Positions 37,254 through 40,667 of a DNA stretch of 51,562 nucleotides are shown one piece after another. The stretch spans positions 1 to 51,562 of the forward strand of contig CANIFU010000013.1 of the NCBI GenBank assembly GCA_947466965.1. The letters are read 5' to 3'. The stretch's first letter is position 1. Each line of letters opens with the position of its first letter. The DNA comes from Bacteroidota bacterium (GTDB lineage: Bacteria > Bacteroidota > Bacteroidia > 2-12-FULL-35-15). Under the pieces are notes generated by a model, which saw only the letters and a program-made list of their open reading frames with translations, did not search any database and had not been told where the DNA came from. The position numbers and the translations under genes are program-made.

Positions 37254-37275
37254 TGCTCTCAAATTTTTGAGAGCA
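37254..37275. terminator. Bidirectional terminator
   Basis: Stem TGCTCTCAAA / TTTGAGAGCA with runs of A before and T after, so it can act on both strands. It serves the DUF4258 gene and the YHYH gene ending at 37306. Confidence 0.85.
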
Positions 37276-37305: not shown

Positions 37306-38676
37306 TTATTTTATGATGGTGATCTTTTTACTGATAACAGTCGTTCCTGAAATGATTTTAACTAGATACTGACCGCTATATAATTTTTGAGTATCAAAAT
37401 AAGCAATTGTACTGCCTTGATACACTGACGTTTTTTGAATGAATCGTCCTGTAATATCATATAATTCAATTGTTACATTCTCTTTTCTTAATCCGGTTAT
37501 TTGTATAGCAACAAGATCGTTTGCTGGATTAGGAAAAACAGTTGCATTTATTTCATTCGAATAAGAATCAGAAACACTTAATGGACTTGGGATATACTCT
37601 GTAACCGGTCCTGTAATTGCAGCCACATCTGCCACTACTTTAGTACCATAAAAAGTTGGTCCTACCAAATAAGGATATGCTGAATTCCAGTTTGCATCAA
37701 CAGTTGCAAAATAGCAGTAGATACCAAGTGGATATTCAGGTGTTATACAATATCTTCCGTTGTGTTCATCTAAATAGTCAGGTGTTGCTGAAGATGTTAT
37801 ATTGTACTGATAATCTTCTCTGAAATAACCCAAAGGATAAGTAGCACTTACTGGAGGTCCCGGCGTAACGGTTGCTCCTGTTGAATAAGTTGTTCTAGTA
37901 GTAATTGTTCGTTTGCTGTAACTAGATTTCATTCTAACTATTCCACCTGTTCCATCTACATTTTTAAATCCATAAGCACCATATACGGGAAAACCATCGT
38001 AAGCAAAACCAATTAGTGGAGAATGAACAGTACTGTCGATTGTATACAATCCATCGGCAGCATATAAATTGCAGACAGTTGAAATTACATTAAGATCCAA
38101 ATTGAATGCGCTAGGGTTTTGATGTGTGTGGTAATTTCCCATAGCAGGATGTCCTTTTGAACAATCGAAACCTCCTCGTTCTCCAACTACGGCATCTCGG
38201 TTCCAAACTCCGTCACCCATACAGGGAGGCATAATCGGACCACCACATAGGGATGAGCTTGCGTTTCTCCAAGATACACCGTCTCTGTAATCAAAAAATG
38301 CAATCCCGTTTATAAATACTCCGATATTTCCACCTGTTGTGTTTGTTGGTGTTCCTAAATTTTGAACCGGAGTAAGAGGGATTTTAAAAATTGCACTTTG
38401 ATTAGTAGCGATTGATGGATTTCCATCCAGATATGGTCCGGTAGGATAAGAAGGAATACCTTTTGTTTTTACATATGCAAAGCTTGTTGAGTAGTAAACC
38501 TTTTGAACATTCGCTGAGTCTGCATCGTTCAATGGTGTTGACCCACCTGCTACAGTATAGTGACTCCCTAAAATACCTGTTGTGTTGTGAAGCCAGGATG
38601 TAATTGCAGGATTTGTTTGTGCCATTCCTATGCAATAGCTCGAAAACAAAATAGATGCGATTATTATTTTTTTCAT
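37306..38676 (-). CDS. YHYH-domain secreted protein with T9SS type A sorting domain
   Basis: 456 residues. Signal peptide 1-19. The YHYH domain (about 90-350) contains GGPIMPPCMGDGVWNRDAV, the motif GNYHTHQNP and GFAYDGFPVYGAYGF and LDEHNGRYCITPEYPLG, a family pattern rich in His. The last 75 residues (VFPNPANDLVAI to SKKITIIK) form a T9SS type A domain, so it is surface-attached or released. YHYH proteins are of unknown function; several lie near metal or redox genes. It is 175 bases after the MauG-like gene on the same strand. Confidence 0.87.
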   Translation of the reverse strand: MKKIIIASILFSSYCIGMAQTNPAITSWLHNTTGILGSHYTVAGGSTPLNDADSANVQKVYYSTSFAYVKTKGIPSYPTGPYLDGNPSIATNQSAIFKIPLTPVQNLGTPTNTTGGNIGVFINGIAFFDYRDGVSWRNASSSLCGGPIMPPCMGDGVWNRDAVVGERGGFDCSKGHPAMGNYHTHQNPSAFNLDLNVISTVCNLYAADGLYTIDSTVHSPLIGFAYDGFPVYGAYGFKNVDGTGGIVRMKSSYSKRTITTRTTYSTGATVTPGPPVSATYPLGYFREDYQYNITSSATPDYLDEHNGRYCITPEYPLGIYCYFATVDANWNSAYPYLVGPTFYGTKVVADVAAITGPVTEYIPSPLSVSDSYSNEINATVFPNPANDLVAIQITGLRKENVTIELYDITGRFIQKTSVYQGSTIAYFDTQKLYSGQYLVKIISGTTVISKKITIIK

Positions 38677-38732
38677 AGTTATGTGTTTTGTTATTTTAAA
38701 ATTTCATTAATCTTTTATAATCTTAATTTAAA

Positions 38733-38740
38733 CGAAATTA
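38733..38740 (-). promoter_or_regulatory. Weak -7 box TAATTTCG for the YHYH gene
   Basis: One mismatch to TAnnTTTG on the minus strand, about 55 bases before the ATG at 38676. Weak. Confidence 0.3.
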
Positions 38741-38851
38741 CTGTAAGTTAACTACCCTCTATAATAATATAGGTGAACGGTTCTATTTATGCGATTAAAA
38801 AAAGTGTTTAAATATTTTATGCTTTTGATGCCCCTCTTCTATTAAGTATAA

Positions 38852-39886
38852 TTACTCTTTCTTTTTTGGAAAAAAAATATTTTTTGGATAAGAGTAATCT
38901 TTATTAAATAAGAATGATCTATCTGTAAGAGTGAATAAAAATGCTATCAGATCAACGCGTTCGTTGGATGACAAGATGATTTTTTTTTGAAGTTTAGGCG
39001 AAAGTGTTACACCTCCCTGAAAACCTTCAGTATAGTGTGTTAATACTTCCGACAGTTTTTTAAAACGTCCATCGTGCATATAAGGGTAAGAGAATTGAAT
39101 GTTACGTAATGTAGGGACTTTGAATTTCAATGAATCCTTTGGAATGTGTGTGACATTCATTCTCCCTTTATCGTTTAGTATAGTATCAATCGGTAATCCA
39201 TTTATTTCAAATTTAAGATTTGTAAATAACGGTTCGGTATGGCATTCTGCACAATTCGTTTTAAATAATTTATACCCATTTTTTTCTTGAATAGTAAAAT
39301 CGGATTCTTGTCGCATTACACTGTCATATTTCGAGTTCGAGCTAACAAGGGTCACTAAAAACTGAGAAATTGATTTTAACAAGTGTTCGCCTGTAATAAT
39401 GCTATCGTTAAATGCATTGAGAAATAATGAAGGATACATTTTTGATGCTTGAAGCTTCATCACAACATGTTCAATTTTTTCGTCCATTTCATCCGGATTA
39501 CTAATTGGTGCCAACGCTTGCATATCAAGATGGTTAATCGCTCCATCCCACATCAATGAATTATGCCAGGCTAAGTTCATCAAAGCTGGAGAATTTCTTT
39601 TTCCAATGCGGTCATCTATTCCATGACTCAATGAATGGTCAATATGGGTAAATGCAGTGAATTGAGAATGACAGCTTGAACAGGAAATTGTATTGTTCCT
39701 TGAAAGTAGAGGTTCATAAAATAATGCTCGACCCAATTCGATTTTTTTGTTACTCAGATTATTTTTCGAAAAATCGTAGAATGGTTTCGGCCATTTTACT
39801 GGAACAACAAACTGATAATCGTTCGAGCTTTTGAAAGATAAAATGATAAATGAAGCGATTAGTATAAGAACAAAAACTTTTTTCAT
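38852..39886 (-). CDS. Di-haem cytochrome c peroxidase/MauG family protein (MbnH-like)
   Basis: 344 residues with an N-terminal signal or anchor (1-20), so periplasmic. Two haem c sites are complete: CSSCH at 69-73 and CAECH at 212-216. FPYM-like axial-ligand region is YPYMHDGRF near 265-275. The family includes peroxidases and the MauG/MbnH enzymes, which oxidise a partner protein with a bis-Fe(IV) state. It begins two bases after the MbnP-like gene ends, which strongly suggests that MbnP is its partner. Expression is expected from the mbnP promoter. Confidence 0.9.
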   Translation of the reverse strand: MKKVFVLILIASFIILSFKSSNDYQFVVPVKWPKPFYDFSKNNLSNKKIELGRALFYEPLLSRNNTISCSSCHSQFTAFTHIDHSLSHGIDDRIGKRNSPALMNLAWHNSLMWDGAINHLDMQALAPISNPDEMDEKIEHVVMKLQASKMYPSLFLNAFNDSIITGEHLLKSISQFLVTLVSSNSKYDSVMRQESDFTIQEKNGYKLFKTNCAECHTEPLFTNLKFEINGLPIDTILNDKGRMNVTHIPKDSLKFKVPTLRNIQFSYPYMHDGRFKKLSEVLTHYTEGFQGGVTLSPKLQKKIILSSNERVDLIAFLFTLTDRSFLFNKDYSYPKNIFFPKKKE

Positions 39887-39888
39887 TT

Positions 39889-40641
39889 TTATTGGATACT
39901 GAAAATATTTTTCATTTTTTCTGAGAGAAAAAGCGCCTCTGCACCAGGTGACATAACTTGATTTTGTTTGGAAAGATCTGTCTCCTCAATTAATTTTTTT
40001 ATATCAGTTCGTATGGTCATTATTTCTTTATTGTTCATAGCAAGAACAATCGATTTTATTGTATTGTAAGGGAATTGATAACCTCCAACATGAAATTGGA
40101 ATTCGTTTTTTTGTGTGTTGCAGACTTTACTTTTCCCTTCTAACTTAAAATTAATATATCCGTTTTGCCAGGTCCAATACATTCCCTTTGTGGGGTCTAA
40201 GTCCCCGCCATATACTCCCGAAACGTTTGTTAAACTGTCGATTCCTAAATTAAAAATTATTTTATCAAATTTTACTTTTGCAGGAGTGGTGATTGGAATT
40301 GTTAATGATTTTATTTCAGAAACATCCAGTAAATGAAAACTATTTTTTTCGGTATAAACAACCCGTTCGTTTTTTAATAATTCTATTCCTGTAATATAAA
40401 ATTTAAATGCTTCAATTTGTAAGGCTATTCCGTTTTGATATAAGGTATCGTTGAGGTGCAGCGTATCGTTTCCGAAATACGGCTGAAAAATAATGCTACG
40501 TGTTATATTGTTTTGAGCAGATGCTATTTCAAGATTAAAAAACAAAATAAAGCTATAAATTATCCCGCAGCAAATTTTTTGCTTACTTTGGGAAGTCGTT
40601 AGGAGTGATGCTGTAGTATTGTTTTGTTTCGTAATCAGCAT
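39889..40641 (-). CDS. MbnP-family copper-related protein
   Basis: 250 residues. A signal peptide is present but its charged start is long (about 22 residues before the hydrophobic core), ending near AQ43. The mature part shows family features: EAFKFYITGIELL, LLDVSE, GDLDPTKGMYWTWQNGYINF with Trp156 and Trp158, and the late FQFHVGGY. In the methanobactin proteins MbnP and CorA a Trp in the equivalent region is converted to kynurenine and helps bind copper. Here that is inference. First gene of the mbnP-mauG pair; -7 box at 40660-40667. Confidence 0.87.
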   Translation of the reverse strand: MLITKQNNTTASLLTTSQSKQKICCGIIYSFILFFNLEIASAQNNITRSIIFQPYFGNDTLHLNDTLYQNGIALQIEAFKFYITGIELLKNERVVYTEKNSFHLLDVSEIKSLTIPITTPAKVKFDKIIFNLGIDSLTNVSGVYGGDLDPTKGMYWTWQNGYINFKLEGKSKVCNTQKNEFQFHVGGYQFPYNTIKSIVLAMNNKEIMTIRTDIKKLIEETDLSKQNQVMSPGAEALFLSEKMKNIFSIQ

Positions 40642-40659
40642 TTGTTTTATTTATCTTAA

Positions 40660-40667
40660 CAAACTTA
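40660..40667 (-). promoter_or_regulatory. -7 box TAAGTTTG for the mbnP-mauG unit
   Basis: Exact TAnnTTTG match on the minus strand, 18 bases before the ATG at 40641. No metal-regulator box recognised. Confidence 0.5.

Follow-up and report, generated by a model that had tools for sequence, protein, structure and literature searches.

Do the MbnP and MbnH-type genes of a Bacteroidota genome act in copper handling outside a methanobactin operon, and does the YHYH gene that follows them belong to the same system? Both questions are raised by three neighbouring minus-strand genes at 37306-40641 of the window, by which we mean the whole 51,562-nucleotide stretch analysed.

Results

Gene content and organization of the locus

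The three genes encode an MbnP, a di-haem enzyme of the MauG/MbnH type and a YHYH protein with a T9SS tail (Table 1). The preliminary description of this DNA had placed the first two genes two bases apart, with a YHYH gene bearing a T9SS domain next on the same strand. Profile searches confirmed both statements and placed each protein in its family well above the Pfam cut-off, with matches to PF20243 and PF03150 on either side of a 2-bp gap (39887-39888) and matches to PF14240 and PF18962 for the third protein. The di-haem gene and the YHYH gene are separated by 175 bp, and the upstream neighbour of the trio is a proline dehydrogenase gene. The window MbnP scored 140.6 bits against PF20243 (gathering score 27) and 33 bits against the NCBIfam MbnP equivalog TIGR04052, which is below the cut-off of 140. 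The di-haem enzyme scored 205 bits (E 2e-60) against the MbnH equivalog TIGR04039, again below the cut-off (363), indicating that both proteins are members of the wider families rather than strict equivalogs. The third protein matched the PF14240 profile and carries the invariant three His and Asp of YHYH proteins.

A scan of the window for transcription signals revealed no terminator between the di-haem gene and the YHYH gene, the only strong one of the locus lying past YHYH. The possible promoter element TAnnTTTG is present upstream of MbnP and was not found on the minus strand between MbnH and YHYH. It occurs 81 times in the window for 79 expected, that is at chance frequency, so that the copy upstream of MbnP is only suggestive. 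Sigma-70 promoter predictions in the window were likewise at chance level.

Table 1. Positions in the window of the three genes, their candidate functional residues and the associated transcription signals.
Feature	Position	Strand	Remarks
MbnP-family copper-binding-type protein	39889..40641	-	250 aa; N-terminal hydrophobic export segment; PF20243, E 7.3e-41
W156-T-W158 (WxW) motif of MbnP, candidate Trp-to-kynurenine site	40168..40176	-	in GMYWTWQNGYI
Trp156 of MbnP	40174-40176	-	Trp in 101/105 homologues
Trp158 of MbnP	40168-40170	-	Trp in 94/105 homologues
His184 of MbnP, candidate metal ligand	40090..40092	-	His in 102/105 homologues
MbnH/MauG-type di-haem enzyme	38852..39886	-	344 aa; CCP_MauG PF03150, E 1.2e-51
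First haem motif CXXCH, C69-H73	39668..39682	-	99% conserved
Second haem motif CXXCH, C212-H216	39239..39253	-	99% conserved
Tyr285, candidate axial haem ligand	39032..39034	-	Tyr in 110/115; aligned with Tyr of 6e1c
YHYH protein, secreted	37306..38676	-	456 aa; PF14240, E 1.7e-51, residues 97-331
YHYH-type motif Y182-H-T-H185	38122..38133	-	predicted metal site with D171, H176, D227, D303
T9SS C-terminal sorting domain of YHYH	37315..37539	-	residues 380-454; PF18962, E 3.2e-14; TIGR04183
Rho-independent terminator after YHYH	37254..37275	-	usable from both strands; 9-bp stem + T-run; fold z -4.96
TAnnTTTG, possible Bacteroidota -7 promoter element	40660..40667	-	18 bases before MbnP ATG

The MbnP and MbnH-type proteins

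Sequence and profile searches of the PDB with MbnP did not reveal any relative, unlike a fold search with its AF2 model (pLDDT 89.8). The best match of the model was 7l6g, the MbnP of Methylosinus trichosporium (Z 18.1, 2.8 A over 205 residues, 20% identity), and the next unrelated match reached a Z score of only 4.7; CorA/MopE were not listed among the fold matches. The solved MbnP is a copper protein. The two Trp of GMYWTWQNGYI had been proposed as candidates for conversion to kynurenine, and their absence from homologues would have spoken against the proposal. Both are kept in most homologues, as is His184 (Table 1), and W156, W158 and H184 are invariant in an alignment of 49 MbnPs, all but one of which come from trio loci. 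At two loci (L108 and L117) MbnP genes occur in tandem, and the full WxW is missing from both copies. By analogy with the methanotroph proteins and with CorA/MopE (PMC3912023), we infer that a Trp of the window MbnP may be converted to kynurenine.

The di-haem enzyme matched a solved di-haem enzyme, 6e1c, in a phmmer search (E 4.6e-37); we take 6e1c to be the MbnH of M. trichosporium. A Tyr haem ligand is a signature of MauG and MbnH, and the assignment to this type rests on the CCP_MauG domain, the two CXXCH motifs, a Tyr at the distal ligand position and the adjoining MbnP gene. Glu133 and Trp113 are also kept in the homologues (99% and 82%, respectively). The residues predicted to serve MbnH chemistry, two CXXCH and the Tyr, are thus conserved together with the candidate Trp of MbnP. 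In the sampled Bacteroidota genomes, a di-haem gene lies directly downstream of nearly every MbnP gene: it was found within 800 bp at 70/72 pair loci and at all 33 trio loci (103/105 overall). At six loci from several Bacteroidota (L064, L079, L099, L101, L107 and L116), the MbnP gene precedes not one but two di-haem genes of the MauG-like kind, arranged in tandem.

We searched the whole host genome (3.1 Mb, 95.6% complete) for MbnB (PF05114). No match was found, in agreement with the earlier remark that methanobactin synthesis genes are absent, and the pair therefore does not belong to a methanobactin operon by this measure. The absence is not new: as early as 2013, Kenney and Rosenzweig described the conservation of the MbnP-MbnH pair as reaching "far beyond" the producers of methanobactin (PMC3621798), so that pairs lacking methanobactin genes have been on record from that year. 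The host carries a second MbnP-di-haem pair outside the window (G000:C34:25796-27348, equivalent to L036:8796-10348), beside a TonB receptor gene; contig C34 stops inside its di-haem gene. A third, separate CCP_MauG gene is also present in this genome.

Conserved residues of the YHYH protein

Residues Y182, H183, H185, D171, D227 and D303 are conserved at 100%, and H176 at 99-100%, in both the linked and the unlinked members of the YHYH family. Linked members and closely related proteins account for most occurrences of H218, H305 and C310. W28 and W158 are conserved at 98-99% in linked members. W158 was considered as a residue specific to linkage with MbnH, but this was not supported, as some distant YHYHs without the linkage retain it too (6/13). 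An AF2 model built from 42 close homologues reached a pLDDT of 55, too poor for a fold search, and the metal site of YHYH is accordingly predicted from conservation. No solved YHYH domain was found in the PDB, where profile matches were limited to the T9SS tail and one weak match at chance level. No full relative of the protein was found in the plasmids searched. A survey of phages predicted a Zn2+ hydrolase site from the three His and the Asp of YHYH domains (PMC7824862).

Linkage of YHYH to the MbnP-MbnH pair

A link between YHYH and the pair had been put forward in the preliminary description as inference only, with the suggestion that co-occurrence be counted across Bacteroidota. A single set of 247 Bacteroidota genomes was searched for both MbnP and YHYH. 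Nine of the 20 full-length YHYH places, in 8 genomes, adjoin an MbnP-di-haem pair and share its strand, for an adjacency expected by chance of about 0.2% per gene. MbnP was present in 13/19 genomes with a full-length YHYH versus 54/228 of those without (p 1e-4). The six remaining YHYH genomes of this sample do not contain MbnP, indicating that the presence of YHYH does not require it. Among 59 relatives, 26/32 full-length YHYH genes have an MbnP gene on their own strand no more than 4.5 kb away, and a further four, of which two are located at contig edges, adjoin a di-haem gene. The neighbourhood is thus conserved both in relatives and across the phylum. Among the best 80 YHYH relatives in named genomes, 59 are accompanied on their own strand by a di-haem gene at a distance of up to 3 kb; these loci come from Flavobacteriales, Chitinophagales, Saprospiraceae, Sphingobacteriales and Ignavibacteria/Kapabacteria MAGs, the last of which draw on the phylum sample of the window and are counted here in the same phylum. 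Many of the linked genomes belong to a single genus, the samples overlap in ancestry, and the selection of the 80 named loci was based on resemblance to trio YHYHs; the counts are accordingly not independent and the p-values are indicative only.

Two gene orders were observed, YHYH-MbnP-MbnH and MbnP-MbnH-YHYH. Gaps within the trio often range from -4 to +30 bp, suggesting that the genes are probably co-transcribed. In two genomes (G260 and G272) the trio is split: MbnH stays with YHYH, and MbnP stands alone at a different locus. The MbnP tree contains a supported set, 64 rows in size, that comprises 57 trio MbnPs and 7 pair MbnPs. We found no published link of YHYH to MbnP or to cytochrome c peroxidase in the literature searched. 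The linkage of YHYH is the strongest part of our observation.

Metal-sensing and oxidase genes near the trios

Directly upstream of many trios lie genes for an ECF sigma factor, a single-TM protein of about 97 aa and a periplasmic Metal_resist/LTXXQ protein of about 160 aa. The Metal_resist sensor and ECF sigma were found at 15/33 trios and at 1/72 pair-only loci (p 2e-8). The sensor has three invariant residues, H74, H127 and C135, and in database searches it matches Spy/CpxP models, not CnrX. Next in frequency among the partners are a CueO-like multicopper oxidase secreted by T9SS, encoded at 15/95 trio loci, and a redoxin, at 11/95, versus none of 70 pair loci in either case. The window trio itself lacks the ECF sigma/anti-sigma/metal-sensor module, the multicopper oxidase and the redoxin, and a search of the host genome, run without a positive control, did not detect the Metal_resist sensor. 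The idea that the pair has a more general copper role in Bacteroidota, already voiced for this locus, is strengthened at the level of gene content by the presence of the sensor module and the oxidase next to trios and almost never next to pair-only loci.

Other neighbours were also recorded. Sulfatase, CotH and arylsulfotransferase genes adjoin some YHYH genes; this fits a general secreted-enzyme island, and YHYH may have a more general role. At seven loci (L127:3822-6077 and 6 others), found in several genomes of the same genus, a secreted CotH-kinase protein with a Lamin Tail Domain and a T9SS tail is encoded between the metal sensor and YHYH. A CueO-like multicopper oxidase gene is found near YHYH without linked MbnP at L068, L076, L172, L180, L195, L219 and L223, suggesting a separate link between YHYH and multicopper oxidases. 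Pair-only loci (L038:5932-6909 and those of about 19 other genomes) often carry beside the pair a gene for a protein of about 320 aa, probably an outer-membrane barrel (PF13557-like in the member scanned), and, upstream of MbnP-MbnH, one for an uncharacterised protein of about 127 aa.

Discussion

Sequence, predicted structure and gene neighbourhood together show that some Bacteroidota share a conserved set of three genes, for MbnP, its MauG/MbnH-type di-haem enzyme and a YHYH protein secreted by T9SS. The pair is of a known kind. It resembles the MbnP-MbnH pair of M. trichosporium OB3b (7l6g, 6e1c; GenProp0940) in gene order, MbnP fold, the two CXXCH with Tyr and the conserved Trp, but differs in the absence of methanobactin genes, the 20% structural sequence identity, the scores below the equivalog cut-offs and the added YHYH; relatives of the window additionally carry the ECF/metal sensor and the multicopper oxidase. 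MopE/SACCP of Methylococcus capsulatus and CorA/CorB of Methylomicrobium album likewise combine a secreted or surface copper-binding protein with a neighbouring di-haem enzyme, thought to make the kynurenine (PMC3912023), whereas in the trio it is an additional component, YHYH, that is secreted to the surface. Compared with the YHYH domains (PF14240) of jumbo phages, diatoms and other bacteria, with which it shares the invariant three His and Asp, the window protein is T9SS-secreted, lies beside MbnP/MbnH and has the extra conserved H218, H305 and C310. What is new is the trio itself, with its trio-specific metal-sensing and multicopper-oxidase context, of which we found no description in the literature searched.

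We consider it rather likely that the three genes constitute an envelope module for copper handling, at the surface or in the periplasm, with MbnH as the maturase of MbnP and YHYH as a secreted partner bearing a metal site. After export, MbnH would oxidise Trp156 or Trp158 of MbnP to kynurenine, which together with His184 would complete a copper site, and MbnP would then hold copper or pass it on. T9SS would take YHYH, bearing its own His3/Asp metal site, across the outer membrane, and the protein would act outside the cell in the same pathway, as a copper-binding protein or a metal-dependent enzyme in tolerance or acquisition.

It is also conceivable, if unlikely, that MbnP and MbnH make up an ordinary kynurenine/copper pair beside which YHYH is a mere T9SS cargo, a metal-dependent hydrolase (3 His and Asp) with its own job. 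The hydrolase site predicted in phages, the YHYH genes of genomes devoid of MbnP, the sulfatase, CotH and arylsulfotransferase neighbours and the 175-bp gap of the window would all suit a bystander. A bystander would not, however, be expected to stay linked in two different gene orders and in several families, with gaps compatible with co-transcription and next to trio-specific genes for a metal sensor and a multicopper oxidase. Yet another arrangement would have the di-haem enzyme oxidise a Trp or Tyr near the metal site of YHYH, with or without acting on MbnP as well. The retention of the di-haem gene beside YHYH in the two split genomes, the near-invariance of W28 and W158 in linked YHYHs and the largely linked-specific H218, H305 and C310 point in this direction; we nevertheless regard it as improbable, given the partial conservation of W158 in distant unlinked proteins and the nearly constant pairing of the enzyme with MbnP at loci lacking YHYH.

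The identity of the metal deserves separate consideration. The genes upstream of the trios resemble in arrangement the metal-sensing ECF system CnrYXH of Cupriavidus, with a tandem ECF sigma, one-TM protein and periplasmic Metal_resist protein, although the sensor has His/His/Cys and matches Spy/CpxP, not CnrX, and the module is missing from the window. CnrX, the best known Metal_resist/LTXXQ sensor, answers to Ni/Co, and the trios could by this token handle Ni, Co or Zn, the MbnP-like fold having been put to use for a different ion. We find this very doubtful: the solved MbnP is a copper protein, CueO-like multicopper oxidases accompany trios, and the invariant His/His/Cys of the sensor is compatible with a soft metal. 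The gene complement of the trios suggests that the metal handled is probably copper, while the sensor could answer to another metal.

We tentatively extend the envelope copper-handling module to a three-component Bacteroidota copper system, in which a metal-sensing ECF switch would activate the genes of a copper protein containing kynurenine, of the di-haem enzyme that matures it and of a YHYH metalloprotein exported by T9SS, in some cases joined by a secreted CueO-like oxidase; YHYH would then be a new copper protein, and possibly a substrate of the di-haem enzyme. YHYH proteins are widespread in bacteria, diatoms and phages, with no tested function found in the literature searched. The recurrence of the trio, often with a metal-sensing switch and sometimes with a copper oxidase, provides them with a testable link to the handling of a metal, probably copper. 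MbnP-MbnH pairs, for their part, are common outside methanotrophs, and the trio linkage offers them a candidate role. Linkage, metal sensor and multicopper oxidase lead to one hypothesis for both families: regulated copper handling at the cell surface that may proceed via a protein-derived kynurenine.
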